The translations under genes were made by a program, and so were the position numbers. A stretch of DNA of 64,000 nucleotides from an uncultured Pelagibacteraceae bacterium (GTDB taxonomy: Bacteria > Pseudomonadota > Alphaproteobacteria > Pelagibacterales > Pelagibacteraceae), in assembly GCA_902610675.1 (NCBI GenBank), contig CACLWP010000003.1:1-64000 (forward strand), written 5' to 3'. Each line of letters begins with the position of its first letter. The first letter of the stretch is position 1. The notes beneath the pieces were generated by a model. It had not been told where the DNA came from. It saw only the letters and a program-made list of their open reading frames with translations, and ran no database searches. Below are positions 276-8,854 of the stretch, piece after piece.

Positions 276-1427
276 ATGGGACTTCATTTTTCAAAAAACG
301 AATTTTCGCAAAGAAAAATGAATGTTTTAAAATCAATGAAAGAGCATAATCTTGACGCTCTGTTAATGTTTAGGCAAGAGTCGATGTATTGGCTAACAGG
401 TTATGACACTTTTGGTTATGTTTTTTTTCAAACATTAGTTTTAGATAAAAGTGGAAATATAATGTTACTCACAAGAGCTCCTGATTTAAGACAAGCTCAA
501 AACACATCCAATATAGAAGATATAAGAATTTGGGTTGATAAAGATGGATCAAATCCAACAGATGATCTTAAGGTTATTCTAGATGAATTAAATCTTAAAG
601 GAAAAAAATTAGGAGTTGAATATGAGGCATACGGTTTAACTGGACGTAATGCTATTAGATTAAACAAATCTCTAGAAAATTATTGTCTTCTTGAGGATAA
701 ATCAGACTTAATTACAAAATTAAGAGTGGTTAAATCTAAAGAGGAAATTGTTTATGTTAAAAAAGCTGCAGAGCTTGCTGATAAAGCTTTGGATGAAGTA
801 TGGAAGCATGCAAAATCAGGTGTTAGTGAATCCAAGATATTAGCTGAAATGAACAGAGTTATATTTGAAGGTGGTGGAGATTATCCTGCAAATGAATTTA
901 TAATTGGTTCTGGCAAAAATGCACTGCTTTGTCGTTATCAAGCAGAAAAACAAATTTTAGACAAAAAAGATCAATTAACTATTGAATGGGCTGGTACCTA
1001 TAGACATTACCATTCTGCAATGTTTAGAACTATTCCTATCGGAAATGCAGACCCAAAACATCATGAAATGCACGAAGCATGTGTTAAAGCTCTCACAAAT
1101 TGTGAAAACAAATTAAAACCTGGAAATAAAATTGGAGAAGTCTTTGATATTCATGCAAAAACGTTTGATGACCTTGGTTTCAACAAGGCTCGAATGAACG
1201 CTTGTGGTTACTCATTGGGAAATACCTTTTCTCCAAACTGGATGGACTGGCCAATGATTTACACCAATAATTCTTATGTAATTCAGCCTGGAAATGTTTT
1301 TTTTATGCATATGATATTAATGGACTCTGAAAACCAATTAGCAATGAATCTCGGCGAAACTTATTTGGTCACAGAAAGTGGTAATGAAAGACTAGGAAAG
1401 CAAAAGTTAGATTTGGTTATACTTTAA
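276..1427 (+). CDS. M24 family (creatinase/Xaa-Pro peptidase/DoeA-like) hydrolase
   Basis: 383 aa, pita-bread fold motifs (KSKEEI, GSGKNALLCRYQAEKQ, YRHYHSAMFRT); usual metal-binding Asp positions appear replaced. Confidence 0.8.
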   Translation: MGLHFSKNEFSQRKMNVLKSMKEHNLDALLMFRQESMYWLTGYDTFGYVFFQTLVLDKSGNIMLLTRAPDLRQAQNTSNIEDIRIWVDKDGSNPTDDLKVILDELNLKGKKLGVEYEAYGLTGRNAIRLNKSLENYCLLEDKSDLITKLRVVKSKEEIVYVKKAAELADKALDEVWKHAKSGVSESKILAEMNRVIFEGGGDYPANEFIIGSGKNALLCRYQAEKQILDKKDQLTIEWAGTYRHYHSAMFRTIPIGNADPKHHEMHEACVKALTNCENKLKPGNKIGEVFDIHAKTFDDLGFNKARMNACGYSLGNTFSPNWMDWPMIYTNNSYVIQPGNVFFMHMILMDSENQLAMNLGETYLVTESGNERLGKQKLDLVIL

Positions 1428-2101
1428 TTAAAACTATATTTTTTCTCTAAAAATTTAATCACATTGTGTATTATAAAAGTCATAAATAAATAAATTCCTC
1501 CCGCAACTATGAATACCTCAATTGGTTTAAAAGTTGTTGAAATTATATATTTTGCAACACCAGTTAGGTCCATTATTGTGACTGTACTTGCTAAGGAAGT
1601 TCCTTTCATCATTAATATTATTTCATTACCATAGGCTGGTAAAGATTGTCTGATAGCAATAGGGATCTGAATTTTATAAAAAATTACTTTATTTGAAATG
1701 CCTAGGCTTTTTCCTGCCTCTACTATTCCAGGTTTAATTGTTTGAAATGCTGATCTTAATATCTCAGAAGTATAAGCACCTGTGTTTAAAGCAAAAGCGA
1801 TAATAGCGCACCAATATGGTTCTTTCAAAATTACCCATAAAACTGTCGATCTTAAATATTCAATCTGACCTAGTCCAAAATAAATTATAAAAATTTGTAC
1901 TAAAAGTGGAGTACCTCTAAAAACATATGAATATCCATAGGCAAATTTGTTTATAAATTTATTTTTATTTAATCTTAAAATTGCAAAAATCAATCCAATA
2001 AACAATCCTATTATTAAAGAAACAGAAAGAAGCTTTAAAGTGATCAATGCTGCACTTAATAATTTGGGGAAACTATTTATCATCAACTCAAGATCCATCA
2101 A
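1424..2101 (-). CDS. Polar amino acid ABC transporter permease (HisM-like)
   Basis: Typical HisM/QM permease sequence (YVFRGTPLLVQIFIIYFGLGQ, EAGKSLG). Confidence 0.9.
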   Translation of the reverse strand: MMDLELMINSFPKLLSAALITLKLLSVSLIIGLFIGLIFAILRLNKNKFINKFAYGYSYVFRGTPLLVQIFIIYFGLGQIEYLRSTVLWVILKEPYWCAIIAFALNTGAYTSEILRSAFQTIKPGIVEAGKSLGISNKVIFYKIQIPIAIRQSLPAYGNEIILMMKGTSLASTVTIMDLTGVAKYIISTTFKPIEVFIVAGGIYLFMTFIIHNVIKFLEKKYSFN

Positions 2102-2790
2102 AACCCCCTACTATATTTAATTTCTAATCTATTGATCAATTTCATGCTCACAAAAGTAAGTAATAAATACAAAACAGCAGCAAATGAGTAAAAAAACAAT
2201 GGATCTCTAGTTGAGCCTGCTGCAACATAAGATTGTCTCATGATTTCAACTAAACCTGTAACTGAAATTAAAGAAGTATCTTTAAGTGTTATTTGCCAAA
2301 CATTACTTAGATTCGGAATAGCCAGTCTTAAAGTTTGTGGTAATATAATCTTAAAAAATTTTCCAAATTTATTAAGGCCTAGTACGTTAGCAGCCTCAAA
2401 CTGACCTTTATCGATTGATTGTAGTGCTCCTCTAAAAACTTCAGTTGAGTAAGCACCAGAAATTATGCCAATTGCAAAAGCCCCTGTGATAAATGCATTT
2501 ATTTCAATATATTCATTATAACCAAATATTGATGCAACAAACATAACAGCACCAGTTCCACCAAAAAAGAAAAGGTAAATTACTAATAATTCTGGAACAC
2601 CTCTTATTATTGTTGTGTAAGAATTAGCTATAAAATTTAAAAACTTGTTTTTAGATAATTTTAGTGGGGTAAAAATTAATGCAAAAAGAAAACCTATTAG
2701 CATTGCTGTTATTGAAACAGCTATTGTCATTAAGGTTGCGTAAAATAATTCATCACCCCAACCAGTATTTCCAAATGCTAGAAGTTCCAT
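2098..2790 (-). CDS. Polar amino acid ABC transporter permease (HisQ-like)
   Basis: Permease motifs (YTTIIRGVPELLVIYLFFFG, FEAANVLGLNKF); overlaps next gene by 4 nt. Confidence 0.9.
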   Translation of the reverse strand: MELLAFGNTGWGDELFYATLMTIAVSITAMLIGFLFALIFTPLKLSKNKFLNFIANSYTTIIRGVPELLVIYLFFFGGTGAVMFVASIFGYNEYIEINAFITGAFAIGIISGAYSTEVFRGALQSIDKGQFEAANVLGLNKFGKFFKIILPQTLRLAIPNLSNVWQITLKDTSLISVTGLVEIMRQSYVAAGSTRDPLFFYSFAAVLYLLLTFVSMKLINRLEIKYSRGF

Positions 2791-2795
2791 ACAGA

Positions 2796-2822
2796 TTGGC
2801 GACTATACATTATAGTCGCCAA
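2796..2822 (-). promoter_or_regulatory. Perfect 12-bp intercistronic hairpin between binding-protein and permease genes
   Basis: TTGGCGACTATA-CAT-TATAGTCGCCAA; no T-run after it on the minus strand. Confidence 0.8.
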
Positions 2823-2835
2823 ATCTAAAATTTAA

Positions 2836-3663
2836 TTACATAGAAGCGTCGAAACCAAACCACTTAGTAGCAATTCTACTAATATCTCCGTTTTTTCTCG
2901 CTTTATTTATAGCGGCGTTAAACTTTTTCAAAAGCTCAGTATCATCTTTTCTGATACCAACACCAACACCATTTCCAAATGCACCACCTGAAAAAGTTGG
3001 TCCAGTTAGAACAACTGGCTTACCAGATTTTTCTGCATAGTCACTGAATGCAACAGCAGCAGCTAATGCAGCATCACATCTTCCTGATGCCAAATCTAAA
3101 TTAACTTCATCTTGTGTTTTATAAGTTCTTACATTTACTTTGCCTACGTCACCTGAGTCTAAAAAGTTTTGGTGAATTGTAGCAGTTTGAACACAAACAG
3201 TCTTACCTGCTAATGCACCAGTAAGTGTTTTTAAAGCCTTTTTAGCATCTGAATTTGGTTTAGTTAAATTAATACCCGCTGGTGTGTCTAAACCTTCAAG
3301 ACTTGAGCCTTTCATTACAGCTAAAGATGCAACTTCGTCTGCATAACCTTGAGAAAAGCTTATTGCCTTTTGTCTTTCTGCAGTAATTGACATACCTGCC
3401 ATTATCGCATCAAACTTTCTCATGATTAATGCTGGTATCATTCCATCCCAATCTTGCTCGACTATTACACATTGTTCTCCAATGTATCTACAAAGCGTAT
3501 AAGCTAATTCAACTTCAAAACCTATTAACTTACCTGCTTCATTTTTAGAGTTCCATGGAGGATAAGCACCCTCTGTACCAATTTTTATTTTATCAGCATA
3601 AACATTTCCCATTACAAGCAGAGAAAGTAAAACTGAAAAAATAGTTTTTTTGAATATATTCAT
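2836..3663 (-). CDS. Periplasmic amino acid-binding protein (lysine/arginine/ornithine/histidine type)
   Basis: Signal peptide then IKIGTEGAYPPWNSKNEAGKLIGFEVELA...; SBP family 3. Confidence 0.92.
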   Translation of the reverse strand: MNIFKKTIFSVLLSLLVMGNVYADKIKIGTEGAYPPWNSKNEAGKLIGFEVELAYTLCRYIGEQCVIVEQDWDGMIPALIMRKFDAIMAGMSITAERQKAISFSQGYADEVASLAVMKGSSLEGLDTPAGINLTKPNSDAKKALKTLTGALAGKTVCVQTATIHQNFLDSGDVGKVNVRTYKTQDEVNLDLASGRCDAALAAAVAFSDYAEKSGKPVVLTGPTFSGGAFGNGVGVGIRKDDTELLKKFNAAINKARKNGDISRIATKWFGFDASM

Positions 3664-3724: not shown

Positions 3725-4765
3725 TTAATGATTTATTGATGAAGAAAAATTCCAAGAACAATCGAAACTAGGTATGTAAACTCTTGATAAATTAGTATTT
3801 CCAAAATGATGATTAAATACGTTCAGCCAATTTTCAACTTGAAGAGGTTTTTTATCCTGGCTTCCAACTTGTGCAGTAATAACTCCTTTAGGTTTAAGTA
3901 TCCTAATTAAGGATTCCATATTTTTAGCAGCAAGATCTATACAAAACTGATCATCATTTAAATCAACAAAAATGTGATCATAAGTATCTTCGTTTACAGT
4001 CTTGATGCTTTCAAAAGCATCACCCCATACACATTTAACTGAATTTTTTTCTGTGGCTTTTTTTCCAATATCTCCAAGGTGTTTATAGCAAACTTCAACA
4101 ACTTCTGGATCTAATTCATACCAATCTATAAAGTTAAACTTTTTTGAAATACATTCTCTTGCAACACCACCATCACCACCACCAATAATTGCTGCTCTTT
4201 CATTTTTTTTATTTAATTTTAAGCCAGCTCCTACAAAAGTTGAGCTGTACAAGTGTTCATCTGAAGCTGCAACTTGTATTTCACCATCAATAAATAGAGA
4301 TTTTCCAAATTGTTCTAATTCTAAAATTTCAATATGTTGACCAACTTTTGATTTAAAATCCTCTAGAACTTCATTGACAACGTAAGATTTTTGTAATCCG
4401 GGTGAACTATAGATATCGTGGTAGAGAGATCCAGTATCTCTATTAAATTCTTTTTTTACAATTCTTTTATGTTTAAATTCTTTTTTTATAATATCAATTG
4501 CTACTGATGGGCTTATTTTTCCACAAGTAAAAAAATCAAAACTAATAATTCCATTTTCTGGAAATGTATGAAAACTAATATGACTTTCAGCTAATAACGC
4601 TAAAATAGTAAAACCTTGAGGTTCAAATTTATATTTTGAAATATTCAAAATAGTGACATTGGCTGCTTTAGCTATTTTATGTATAACTTTCTCAAAAACT
4701 GAAGGATCGTACTCTTTTGTAGTACCGATAATATCTAAAGTAATATGCTCCCCAACTTTAATCAT
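3725..4765 (-). CDS. S-adenosylmethionine decarboxylase proenzyme / spermidine synthase (aminopropyltransferase) fusion
   Basis: N-terminal SpeD with pyruvoyl site LLAESHISFHTFPENG; C-terminal SpeE with IIGGGDGGVARE. Confidence 0.92.
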   Translation of the reverse strand: MIKVGEHITLDIIGTTKEYDPSVFEKVIHKIAKAANVTILNISKYKFEPQGFTILALLAESHISFHTFPENGIISFDFFTCGKISPSVAIDIIKKEFKHKRIVKKEFNRDTGSLYHDIYSSPGLQKSYVVNEVLEDFKSKVGQHIEILELEQFGKSLFIDGEIQVAASDEHLYSSTFVGAGLKLNKKNERAAIIGGGDGGVARECISKKFNFIDWYELDPEVVEVCYKHLGDIGKKATEKNSVKCVWGDAFESIKTVNEDTYDHIFVDLNDDQFCIDLAAKNMESLIRILKPKGVITAQVGSQDKKPLQVENWLNVFNHHFGNTNLSRVYIPSFDCSWNFSSSINH

Positions 4766-4766
4766 C

Positions 4767-5420
4767 TTACCCTTTTTTATAGTTTTTAGCCTTATCTAAA
4801 ACTTTTTTCATTTCTTCAAATGAAAGAATCTTAGGTTGTCCTAATTTTAAAGCAATAGTGTATTGATGACAAATATTTTCTATCTCTTGTGCTAGTTCAA
4901 ATGCATCATCAAGATTTTTTCCAAAAGCAACCTGCCCGTGATTAGACATTAAACAAGCAGATCTATTTTCTAAAGCTTTGATAACATTTTTAGATAATTC
5001 TTCAGTTCCATAAGTAGCATATTCAGCACATTTAATGTCTTCTCCTCCTGCAAGAGCAATCATATAATGAAATGGTGGAATAGGTTTTCCATGTGAAGAT
5101 ACAGCTGTTGCGTGTGGAGAATGAGCGTGAACAATGGCGTGTGCTTCTTTTTTATTTACATAAATATCTCGATGAAATCTCCATTCAGATGAAGGTTTGT
5201 TCGTGGAGTTTTTTTCTTCTTCTTCATTTAAACCCATAAAAACAATGTCTTCAGGTTTTAAGCTTTCATATTTTTTTCCTGATGGAGTAATTAAGTATCC
5301 TTCTATATCATCCTCCTTTGCTCTTAAGGATATATTTCCAGATCTAAGCGGTGAGAGATTTGTAGAATTTAATTTTAATGAATATTCGATAATTTGATTT
5401 CTTTGATCTAAATTCTTCAT
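4767..5420 (-). CDS. Class II aldolase/adducin family protein (MtnB-like dehydratase or 5-methylthioribulose-1-phosphate/5-deoxyribulose-1-P aldolase)
   Basis: HAHSPHATAVSS and NHG motifs; embedded in mtnP/mtnA operon. Confidence 0.85.
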   Translation of the reverse strand: MKNLDQRNQIIEYSLKLNSTNLSPLRSGNISLRAKEDDIEGYLITPSGKKYESLKPEDIVFMGLNEEEEKNSTNKPSSEWRFHRDIYVNKKEAHAIVHAHSPHATAVSSHGKPIPPFHYMIALAGGEDIKCAEYATYGTEELSKNVIKALENRSACLMSNHGQVAFGKNLDDAFELAQEIENICHQYTIALKLGQPKILSFEEMKKVLDKAKNYKKG

Positions 5421-6487
5421 TTAAATAATTCTTTAAGTCCTTTTTCCGATGCTTCACATACACCTTTTTCGGTAATTAATCCTGTAACATATTTTGCAGG
5501 TGTTATATCAAAAGCTAAATTCATAGACTTACTTTTTTTTGGATATATTTGAATTTTTTTTATATCTCCTTTTTCATCTAAACCTTCAACCTGAGATAAT
5601 TCATCTGAATTTCTCTCCTCAATTGGAATATCTTTATGATCTTTTATATTCCAATCAATTGTTGAACTTGGTAGTGCAACATAAAAAGGAATATTATTAT
5701 CATGGGCAGCCAATGCTTTGAGATAAGTTCCAACTTTATTGCAAACATCTCCATTGGCTAAAGTTCTATCCGTTCCAACAATACACATGTCAACTTCACC
5801 TCTTTGCATTAGTATACCACCTGTATTATCTGCAATAATTGTGTTTTTAATTCCCTCTTCATTTAATTCATAAGATGTAAGATTTGCTCCTTGATTTCTT
5901 GGTCTGGTTTCATCTGCCCACACATGAACAGGAATTCCTTTTTTATGTGCATGATATATCGGAGAAGTTGCGGTCCCCCAATTTATTGTTGCAAGCCATC
6001 CTGCATTACAATGAGTTAATATATTAACTGTATCTTTTTTTTTATTATAGATTTCTTCAATAATTTTTAGTCCATTTAATCCTATATTTTCACAAAATTT
6101 CACATCTTCTTCACATATATCTTTTGCTTCATTCAACGCTATTTCTAAAATTTTATCGCTATTAACACCAGATAATTTATTCATCATTCTATCAACAGCC
6201 CATTTTAAATTTATTGCTGTTGGTCTTGAACTAATTAAATCTTCTGCAGATTTCTTTAAAAATGATTGGTTATTATTTTCAATAATAGCTAAAACCATTC
6301 CATAAGCAGCTGTAGCTCCTATTAGAGGTGCGCCTCTTACCTCCATTACCTTAATTGCATTTATTGAGTCCTCAGCAGTTTTAAGATCTTTAATAATAAA
6401 TTGATGTGGAAGTTTTGTTTGATCGATAATTTTTACAACATTATTTTCAAACCAAATAGTGCGATATTCTTTTCCTTCAATTCTCAT
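5417..6487 (-). CDS. mtnA: S-methyl-5-thioribose-1-phosphate isomerase
   Basis: MEVRGAPLIGATAAYG, THCNAGWLATINWGTA, WADETRPRNQGANLT, NKVGTYLKALAA. Confidence 0.95.
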   Translation of the reverse strand: MRIEGKEYRTIWFENNVVKIIDQTKLPHQFIIKDLKTAEDSINAIKVMEVRGAPLIGATAAYGMVLAIIENNNQSFLKKSAEDLISSRPTAINLKWAVDRMMNKLSGVNSDKILEIALNEAKDICEEDVKFCENIGLNGLKIIEEIYNKKKDTVNILTHCNAGWLATINWGTATSPIYHAHKKGIPVHVWADETRPRNQGANLTSYELNEEGIKNTIIADNTGGILMQRGEVDMCIVGTDRTLANGDVCNKVGTYLKALAAHDNNIPFYVALPSSTIDWNIKDHKDIPIEERNSDELSQVEGLDEKGDIKKIQIYPKKSKSMNLAFDITPAKYVTGLITEKGVCEASEKGLKELFK

Positions 6488-7416
6488 TTTAATTTTGAAG
6501 CAATAAAATTAAGAATTTCTGGATTATAGTATTGAAAACATAATCCTTGGTTCATTTCATGACCTGGATTTTTCCGAGCTGAAATATTTTCTTGCCAATC
6601 ATCTCCTTTTACAACACAAGATTTTCCTTTAATTTTATAATCTTGAGAAATAACAATTCTTTTAACTCCTGGAACTTCTTCTAACCAGTCAGATAACAAT
6701 CCCTCCCATTTATCCTTGGGGTGAGTGAAAGCTAAAACAGAGACATTATCAGATTGTTTAATATTATTAATTTGTCTTGCTCGTAACTCAGCAGGGCCTG
6801 GATATTTTTTAGCAAATTTTTCTAATGCCTTTTCAGGGCCTACTTTTTTTACTTTGTAAGTTTTAGAAAGCTTACCAAAACAAGCTTGCATATATGATAT
6901 GCCTCCGCCTACTTTTTCGGGGTAAGCTGATAGAAACATTAGAGTTAATAAACCCCCGCATGAATGACCTGATATAATAATTTGTTTTCTTGGAACCCCT
7001 ATACTTATAAATTTTTCAACTAATTCTAAATTTTTTTCAATTCTTTTATCTAATTTGTGCTTACCAACATAAGGAGTTTTGGAGTTCCACCAATGTTTTT
7101 TTAATGACATATCACCTGCAAAATCATTTGAACAGAAATTATAAACCATAATTTTTTTACCATTAATTTCCTTATCAACTAATGAAGCTTGATTTCTAAT
7201 TTGATTTACCCAAATGCATTCATTCTTGTGTGCTTTATCATTTGAATTTTGACCATGATTGTAAATAATTATAATTTTATTTTTAGGATCATCAATATTC
7301 ATACCTTCTTTTACCGAGGCTGATTTGTTAATAAAACCACTTTTTAAAATTTTTCCATTAGCATAGACTGTATTTGAGACTATTAAAAATATTAGAATTA
7401 ATAATAATTTTTTCAT
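6484..7416 (-). CDS. Exported alpha/beta-hydrolase-like protein
   Basis: Signal peptide MKKLLLILIFLIVSNTVYANG; nucleophile elbow GHSCGG; 4-nt overlaps with both neighbours. Confidence 0.8.
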   Translation of the reverse strand: MKKLLLILIFLIVSNTVYANGKILKSGFINKSASVKEGMNIDDPKNKIIIIYNHGQNSNDKAHKNECIWVNQIRNQASLVDKEINGKKIMVYNFCSNDFAGDMSLKKHWWNSKTPYVGKHKLDKRIEKNLELVEKFISIGVPRKQIIISGHSCGGLLTLMFLSAYPEKVGGGISYMQACFGKLSKTYKVKKVGPEKALEKFAKKYPGPAELRARQINNIKQSDNVSVLAFTHPKDKWEGLLSDWLEEVPGVKRIVISQDYKIKGKSCVVKGDDWQENISARKNPGHEMNQGLCFQYYNPEILNFIASKLK

Positions 7417-8285
7417 TTCCTTAATACCCTTCCCGCTACCGTATTTAATTTTTCTATTGTTTTTTTTGTTCTTTTTTCAGGGGCTGTGATAATCGCTACA
7501 TCCAAACAATTATTAGTTGGATCATTAGGATCAATGTGATCTTCAAAATTTTCTATTAAATTTTTAATTACATTTTTTGCTTTAGCAGCATTACCTAATA
7601 AAACTTTTACTACTTGTTGAACATCAACATCTTCGTGATCTGGATGCCAACAGTCGTAATCAGTAACCATAGAAACAGATGCGTATCTTATTTCTGCTTC
7701 TCTTGCTAATTTTGCCTCTGGCATATTAGTCATCCCAATTACATCTGCCTTCCAAGATCTATATAAATTAGACTCTGCCAAAGTTGAAAATTGAGGTCCT
7801 TCCATAACCACGTATGTCCCATTTCTTTGATATTCAATTTTTTCTTTCTTTATTGCCTGCTCACATGCATTCATTAAACCGTTAGATGTTGGATTTGCCA
7901 TAGAAACGTGGGCAACAATTTCATCATCAAAAAATGTCTTTTCCCTCGCAAATGTCCTGTCAATAAATTGGTTAACTATTACAAACTTTCCTGGTTGCAA
8001 ATCTTTTTTTAAAGACCCAACTGCTGATACTGAAACAATATCTGTGACACCTAATTGTTTAAGAGCATCAATATTTGCTCTAAAATTTATTTTTGAAGGA
8101 GAAATAAAATGTCCTCTGCCGTGTCTTGGTAAAAAGTAAACTTCTTTTTTATTATAATTAGTTTTTAAAATTTGGTCTGAGGGTTTTCCCCAGGGAGTGT
8201 TTACATCTAATAATTCTCTATTTTTGAACTCTTCAACATCATATAAACCGCTGCCACCAATAATTGCTAATTTACTTATTGTCAT
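7413..8285 (-). CDS. mtnP: S-methyl-5'-thioadenosine phosphorylase
   Basis: LAIIGGSGLYDV, LPRHGRGH, VVMEGPQFSTLAES, VIGMTNMPEAKLAREAE. Confidence 0.95.
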   Translation of the reverse strand: MTISKLAIIGGSGLYDVEEFKNRELLDVNTPWGKPSDQILKTNYNKKEVYFLPRHGRGHFISPSKINFRANIDALKQLGVTDIVSVSAVGSLKKDLQPGKFVIVNQFIDRTFAREKTFFDDEIVAHVSMANPTSNGLMNACEQAIKKEKIEYQRNGTYVVMEGPQFSTLAESNLYRSWKADVIGMTNMPEAKLAREAEIRYASVSMVTDYDCWHPDHEDVDVQQVVKVLLGNAAKAKNVIKNLIENFEDHIDPNDPTNNCLDVAIITAPEKRTKKTIEKLNTVAGRVLRK

Positions 8286-8326
8286 ATTATAAAATTAATT
8301 TATTTATACTTTTATAATTTACTCTT

Positions 8327-8854
8327 ATGAATTTAAAAGACTTTATTAGATCCATCCCTGATTATCCAAAAAAAGGTATTTTGTTCAGAGATATCACCAC
8401 ATTAATTAAAGAAGAAAAGGCTTTTGCAGAAACAATTAATCAAATAGTTGAAAAATCAAAAAAATATAAATTTGACAAAATTGCTGCTATAGAGTCTAGA
8501 GGTTTTGTTTTTGCTTCAGCTGTATCTTATTTATTAAATAAACCTTTTATAATGTTAAGAAAAAAAGATAAGCTTCCAGCAGATGTTCATTCTGTTGATT
8601 TTGAACTAGAGTATGGCACTGCAACAATTCAAGTACATAAAGACTCGATTAATAACAATGAAAGTGTTTTAATTATAGACGACCTAATTGCAACAGGAGG
8701 AACAGCTGAGGCTGCTGCTAAACTTATTGAGATTTCAAAAGGAAAAGTTTCAGCATTTATCTTTGTTATTGACTTATTTGATCTAAATGGTGCAAACAAT
8801 TTAAAGGAAAAAGGTTTTAGTGTAGAAAGTCTTATGGAATTTCCAGGTCATTAA
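8327..8854 (+). CDS. apt: Adenine phosphoribosyltransferase
   Basis: IRSIPDYPKKGILFRDITTL, AIESRGFVFA, VLIIDDLIATGGTAEA. Confidence 0.96.
   Translation: MNLKDFIRSIPDYPKKGILFRDITTLIKEEKAFAETINQIVEKSKKYKFDKIAAIESRGFVFASAVSYLLNKPFIMLRKKDKLPADVHSVDFELEYGTATIQVHKDSINNNESVLIIDDLIATGGTAEAAAKLIEISKGKVSAFIFVIDLFDLNGANNLKEKGFSVESLMEFPGH

Follow-up and report, generated by a model that had tools for sequence, protein, structure and literature searches.

What becomes of the 5'-methylthioadenosine (MTA) that polyamine synthesis leaves behind in a streamlined marine bacterium? The question is raised by a locus in a Pelagibacteraceae (SAR11) genome of 857 kb, estimated to be 84% complete, of which a stretch of 64,000 nucleotides (the window) was analysed. 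Here five genes of one strand follow one another in the order mtnP, an exported hydrolase, mtnA, a class II aldolase and a speD-speE fusion (speDE), and apt starts divergently from mtnP. The reading that we favor, with a probability of about 0.8, is a polyamine-coupled dihydroxyacetone phosphate (DHAP) shunt, in which the MTA released by SpeDE would be taken apart by the products of the genes upstream. The six open reading frames and their junctions, described in an earlier note made from the letters of this DNA (the original prediction), all lie where that note placed them.

How firmly can the enzymes be named? MtnP passes NF006492 (444.8 bits, cut-off 437) and TIGR01694 (309.9, cut-off 274.85), and MtnA, which is 57% identical to MtnA of E. 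coli S88, passes NF004326 (458.1 bits, cut-off 271); the MTA phosphorylase and the 5-methylthioribose 1-phosphate (MTR-1-P) isomerase of a DHAP shunt of the MtnP type are thus both found above curated cut-offs. Apt reaches 214.6 bits with NF002634 (cut-off 170). SpeDE matches TIGR03330 at positions 4-109 (100.1 bits, cut-off 75.65) and then PF01564/PF17284 (Spermine_synth), an N-terminal class 1b S-adenosylmethionine decarboxylase followed by a C-terminal aminopropyltransferase. The domain order is that of the SpeD-SpeE of Candidatus Pelagibacter HTCC1062 and HTCC7211, a fusion which in E. coli makes spermidine, spermine and thermospermine (PMC11107197); in the portion of that paper available to us we found no mention of a coupling of SpeD-SpeE to MTA disposal.

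The proposed route would begin with SpeDE, which would decarboxylate S-adenosylmethionine (SAM) and transfer aminopropyl groups, each transfer leaving one MTA behind, first for spermidine and then for spermine or thermospermine, as in Ca. Pelagibacter (PMC11107197). MtnP would convert MTA and phosphate to adenine and MTR-1-P, the adenine being recycled by Apt, and MtnA would isomerize MTR-1-P to 5-methylthioribulose 1-phosphate (MTRu-1-P). A FucA-like aldolase would then cleave MTRu-1-P to DHAP, a gain of carbon, and 2-(methylthio)acetaldehyde. No gene for an alcohol dehydrogenase that would give 2-(methylthio)ethanol is present in the window's operon. For the pathway there is precedent (PMC5893883, PMC10986504, PMC6079011). 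We infer the substrate of the aldolase, the direction of flow and the fate of the aldehyde and its sulfur.

Does the canonical methionine salvage route exist alongside? Profile searches covered the window's own genome and 118 Pelagibacteraceae genomes, 45 of these at least 90% complete. Acireductone dioxygenase (mtnD) was found above cut-off in 0/118, as was enolase-phosphatase (mtnC), for which there were only weak partial matches of at most about 26 bits; an mtnC-like match in the window's genome was rejected, at 21.8 bits against a cut-off of 128. The canonical route downstream of MtnB thus appears to be missing, mtnE not having been searched. The original prediction went further, suggesting that methylthio-sulfur is not returned to methionine in this way. 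That suggestion is not supported, because the same shunt serves sulfur salvage in Rhodospirillum rubrum and Rhodopseudomonas palustris (PMC5893883, PMC10986504).

The aldolase is the sole PF00596 protein of the window's genome (176.3 bits), and its best named relatives, up to 97% identical, are from uncultured Pelagibacteraceae and Candidatus Pelagibacter ubique, which marks the genome as SAR11. Its best NCBIfam models are FucA types, every one of them below cut-off: the FucA equivalog models PRK06833 (196.9 vs 264), PRK08087 (188.4 vs 264) and TIGR01086 (170 vs 400). The MtnB models TIGR03328 (67.4 vs 137.05), PRK09220 (64.9 vs 226) and PRK06754 (50.5 vs 281) likewise fail. Aligned to E. coli FucA, the protein keeps E79, H98, H100, H161, Y119 and Y214, which match E73, H92, H94, H155, Y113 and Y209, and most residues of the FucA phosphate site are also kept. 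We take H98, H100 and H161 to be the metal histidines, E79 the catalytic glutamate and Y119 and Y214 the tyrosines described for FucA. The original prediction had preferred cleavage by an aldolase to dehydration by MtnB, and the failed MtnB models, the intact FucA-type residues, the linkage to mtnA and mtnP and the absence of mtnD and mtnC above cut-off bear it out: the protein is most likely a DHAP-shunt aldolase, not MtnB. Klebsiella plasmid hits, considered as references for MtnB, were discarded; the single hit that was opened lies beside IS26, near an L-threonate dehydrogenase gene, and is a class II aldolase gene in shortened form.

Is the coupling to speDE more than an accident of one contig? 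In the window the minus-strand genes overlap by 4 nt at ATGA sequences (7413-7416, 6484-6487 and 5417-5420), and a 1-nt gap separates the aldolase stop (4767) from the speDE start (4765). The order mtnP-(hydrolase)-mtnA-aldolase-speDE recurs across 80 named Pelagibacteraceae loci, picked for encoding this aldolase. The mtnA-aldolase overlap of 4 nt is present in 78 of 79 loci, the 1-nt spacing before speDE in 79 of 80 and a 4-nt overlap of mtnP with mtnA in 47 of 52. The start of apt (8327) lies 41 nt from that of mtnP (8285), and apt is divergent, mostly at 41-42 nt, in every one of the 71 named relatives with both apt and mtnP. The arrangement is not due to chance, and that junctions are kept to the nucleotide suggests strong selection for co-expression, presumably from a single transcript. 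An Rfam scan found no riboswitch or other element in or near the operon.

Table 1. Features of the window and of loci in related genomes (L numbers denote loci of relatives)
Feature	Position	Strand	Remarks
apt, adenine phosphoribosyltransferase, 175 aa	8327..8854	+	divergent from mtnP
apt/mtnP intergenic region, 41 nt	8286..8326		presumed promoter region, from sequence
mtnP, MTA phosphorylase, 290 aa	7413..8285	-	
exported alpha/beta-hydrolase, 310 aa	6484..7416	-	accessory; outside core pathway
mtnA, MTR-1-P isomerase, 356 aa	5417..6487	-	
class II aldolase, 217 aa	4767..5420	-	proposed MTRu-1-P aldolase
speD-speE fusion, 346 aa	3725..4765	-	predicted MTA source
basic amino-acid ABC transporter	1424..3663	-	substrate-binding protein 2836-3663; permeases 2098-2790 and 1424-2101
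aldolase/short-chain-dehydrogenase fusion	L065:5070-7109; L079:8015-10048; 17 further loci	+; -	N-terminal class II aldolase, C-terminal dehydrogenase
MTA/SAH-nucleosidase-like gene, 174-178 aa	L105:7820-8344; L106:6253-6780; L107:4768-5304; L108:8238-8774	-; +; +; -	unusually short
mtnP beside speDE (G048)	L109:8147-9013	-	
SMR-family efflux gene, 112 aa	L065:7113-7451 and relatives	-	
enoyl-CoA-hydratase-like gene (NF006008) and CoA-binding protein	L064:6033-7288 and six relatives	+	one lineage
cargo next to mtnA	L095:6859-7914; L093:6867-7793; L067:6536-7666; L115:11603-12403	+; +; +; -	other exported hydrolases and others

What do relatives without the aldolase have in its stead? The 118 family genomes include 88 with mtnA, 87 with mtnP, 94 with speDE and 56 with the aldolase; the last count omits, from 57 matches, a distant one in G101. 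Twenty genomes with mtnA but without the aldolase were opened, and a fusion of about 677 aa, joining a class II aldolase to a short-chain dehydrogenase (SDR), was found between mtnA and speDE on the opposite strand, with mtnP-mtnA and speDE in place around it. It passes NF006192 (bifunctional aldolase/short-chain dehydrogenase; 887 and 908 bits, cut-off 639). In all 19 copies the aldolase glutamate, the third metal-histidine and the YxxxK motif of the SDR are kept, and strict patterns find HxH in 17 and the nucleotide-binding motif in 12. The fusion occurs in 34 of the 118 genomes and never together with the aldolase; the 88 mtnA-bearing genomes divide into 54 with the aldolase, 32 with the fusion and 2 with neither. 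A Fisher p of 6e-22 for this exclusion ignores relatedness, so we rely instead on counts from the speDE tree, whose well-supported branches require at least three switches between aldolase and fusion. One of these switches is internal to genus g1: G101 carries the fusion, and the genomes closest to it, G069 and G109, carry the aldolase. The locus is thus a swappable cassette in which an aldolase-dehydrogenase fusion can take the place of the aldolase, a feature that the original prediction did not foresee.

Two other neighbors of mtnA, a gene and a gene pair, were weighed as possible substitutes for the aldolase and rejected, the fusion being the feature common to those loci. An SMR-family efflux gene, possibly a polyamine or cation exporter, directly follows mtnA in several fusion-type genomes; in one lineage mtnA is separated from the fusion by an enoyl-CoA-hydratase-like gene and that of a CoA-binding protein.

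The same two solutions are seen elsewhere in the Alphaproteobacteria. Strong homologues of the small aldolase, 45-62% identical, occur in about 110 of 380 non-SAR11 genomes, and mtnA or mtnP stands beside the homologue in 23 of the 25 loci inspected. Of 385 genomes drawn from the whole class, 69 carry the fusion; in 11 of 20 non-SAR11 loci opened, mtnP and/or mtnA is its immediate same-strand neighbor, once as mtnK-mtnA-fusion, and 10 of these 11 genomes have no small-aldolase homologue. The two occur together in 5 genomes against about 20 expected, a test that is only a guide, as the genomes are related. For the shunt of R. palustris and R. rubrum the alcohol dehydrogenase is described as putative and unknown (PMC5893883), and the fusion is a candidate for it; within a limited literature search we found no paper describing the fusion in this role.

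A third arrangement dispenses with the branch altogether. In four complete or near-complete genomes (G026, G078, G012 and G040) a nucleosidase-like gene stands alone between apt and speDE, with no mtnP-mtnA-aldolase. It is nearest to nucleosidase models, including that of MTA/S-adenosylhomocysteine (SAH) nucleosidase, scores below their cut-offs and keeps the DMEA and ISDNAD motifs; in the speDE tree this type has at least three origins. This exchange of the whole block, too, the original prediction did not foresee. One genome, G048, has mtnP beside speDE and neither mtnA nor the aldolase, so that MTR-1-P would be a dead end there. The genomes listed for genus g5 lack speDE, mtnP, mtnA and the aldolase alike. 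In sister lineages, then, the fusion replaces the aldolase and would add a redox step on the aldehyde to the cleavage, and in others the nucleosidase-like gene replaces the whole branch. That the fusion carries out both late steps of the shunt, MTRu-1-P cleavage and aldehyde redox, in a polyamine-locus cassette that exchanges aldolase, fusion and nucleosidase, we hold to be slightly better than an even bet.

Several points weigh against a polyamine-coupled shunt. The window's genome is incomplete, and mtnE lay outside the gene search, its family not being specific enough. One would have liked the window's aldolase to group with the proven Ald2 of E. coli, an accepted aldolase for MTRu-1-P and 5-deoxyribulose 1-phosphate (dRu-1-P) (PMC10986504). 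It does not: E. coli Ald2 falls with FucA of its own species (support 100/99), outside the window's clade, and DrdA groups with Streptococcus pneumoniae FucA. The tree contained neither an MtnB reference, a gap that also counts here, nor the Ald2 proteins of R. rubrum and R. palustris. "Ald2" is therefore not one sequence family, and likeness to it was dropped as evidence. The tree that the original prediction called for thus placed FucA, Ald2 and DrdA and left the substrate undecided, so that gene context and mutual exclusion carry the argument. Finally, the fusion, being on the opposite strand, is not in the operon, and 5'-deoxyadenosine would pass through the same three enzymes as MTA.

Might 5'-deoxyadenosine from radical-SAM enzymes then be the main load of the trio, cleaved as in Drd from dRu-1-P to DHAP and acetaldehyde, its place beside speDE being incidental? 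The window's aldolase is 36% identical to DrdA, and aldolases of the DrdA/Ald2 type take both dRu-1-P and MTRu-1-P (PMC6079011, PMC10986504); the enzymes here would probably accept both compounds. The trio is, however, locked to speDE by the 1-nt spacing, and the listed g5 genomes have neither speDE nor trio, even though one would expect them to have kept radical-SAM enzymes; linkage and joint absence favor MTA as the main load, and we regard 5'-deoxyadenosine in that part as improbable. The same ties to speDE bear out the coupling of spermidine synthesis to MTA disposal that was claimed at the outset. They also count, together with the adjacency and overlap of mtnP and mtnA in most genomes, against a role of MtnP and Apt mainly in purine salvage, for instance of deoxyadenosine, with mtnA and the aldolase serving another pentose phosphate. 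Such salvage has been proposed for Prochlorococcus (PMC11698098), MTA phosphorylases can be promiscuous, apt diverges from mtnP, and two g12 genomes hold mtnP without mtnA; yet in four genomes the place of mtnP-mtnA-aldolase is taken by an MTA/SAH-nucleosidase-like gene, and we think this role very improbable.

An MtnB dehydratase feeding an unrecognized branch of methionine salvage appears scarcely credible. MtnB belongs to the same superfamily and its models do match weakly, but the protein falls under every MtnB cut-off, its best models are of the FucA type, mtnD and mtnC are absent above cut-off, and its replacement comes from a fusion family resembling rhamnulose-1-phosphate aldolase. Could the fusion itself be an unrelated sugar enzyme merely filling the slot? 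Its opposite orientation would allow this, as would a family name that says only "bifunctional aldolase/short-chain dehydrogenase", and 9 of the 20 non-SAR11 homologues have no mtnA or mtnP within about 8 kb. The absence, among 118 genomes, of any that holds both fusion and aldolase, the independent switch within g1 and the neighbors of the fusion in the other Alphaproteobacteria make it unlikely.

Returning to the polyamine-coupled shunt, what is the hydrolase doing in its operon? It has weak alpha/beta-hydrolase profile matches only and a GHSCGG motif; S152, D235 and H286, which do not vary among 16 homologues, are the probable catalytic triad. An AlphaFold2 model (pLDDT 74.6) matches alpha/beta-hydrolases with probability 1.00 and low TM-scores, the matches being esterase- and DPP4-like. 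Homologues occur in 25 of the 118 genomes, and several of these are distant and encoded away from the operon; where the gene is in the operon it follows mtnP with 4-nt overlaps (14/14), in one genome (L098) it lies between mtnA and the aldolase, and in some it is on another contig. The original prediction was right to list it in the operon, and its patchiness, shifting position and weak structural matches led us to reject it as a pathway enzyme and argue for an accessory, non-core role. In other loci unrelated cargo has been inserted beside mtnA, at or close to the place where the window has its hydrolase, and this part of the operon is thus a small insertion hot spot.

On the other side of speDE lies the gene of the transporter's substrate-binding protein, on the same strand 61 nt away, and in the 80 named loci it is usually the next gene there. 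The transcription unit may therefore be longer than originally described and take in the ABC transporter. The binding protein scores 226 bits with TIGR01096 (lysine/arginine/ornithine), under the cut-off of 256, and matches PDB 8hqr at 8.8e-131; the permeases are nearest to ArtQ/ArtM models. A supply of polyamine precursors is a possible function. The set consists of the binding protein and two permeases, with no ATPase gene among them.

If the proposal is right, SAR11 would regain from MTA its adenine and a triose phosphate. It would release or re-use a C2 methylthio compound, which could be one of the sources of organic sulfur in seawater. The fusion would identify the DHAP-shunt alcohol dehydrogenase and makes this long-open step testable with one gene, and repeated replacement at one locus is a natural experiment on the disposal of a toxic by-product in streamlined genomes.

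How does the locus compare with known systems? The pathway is of a known kind; what goes beyond the original prediction is the cassette with its exchangeable parts, above all the fusion of aldolase and dehydrogenase. The shunt of R. rubrum and R. palustris (MtnP, MtnA and Ald2) has, by family assignment, the same three activities, with MtnP and no kinase, and homologues of its genes stand beside mtnA or mtnP across the Alphaproteobacteria; the organisms with this trio are mostly terrestrial (PMC5893883). Unlike in that shunt, the trio of marine SAR11, with its streamlined genome, is joined to speDE in one operon from which apt diverges; an aldolase-SDR fusion replaces the aldolase in parts of the family, and no sulfur-recovery step was identified. 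The mtnK-mtnA-ald2 island of extraintestinal pathogenic E. coli, a carbon scavenging route (PMC10986504), has a similar MtnA and a FucA-like aldolase 34% identical to the window's, but uses Pfs and MtnK rather than MtnP and includes no polyamine gene. DrdK-DrdI-DrdA, which disposes of 5-deoxyribose in Bacillus thuringiensis, shares the aldolase family and its catalytic residues, and differs in having a kinase instead of a phosphorylase and in being tied to 5'-deoxyadenosine, not to a polyamine gene. The SAR11 fusion, for its part, falls below the cut-off of the rhamnulose-1-phosphate aldolase/alcohol dehydrogenase model TIGR02632 (457 vs 568) and has its place between mtnA and speDE.

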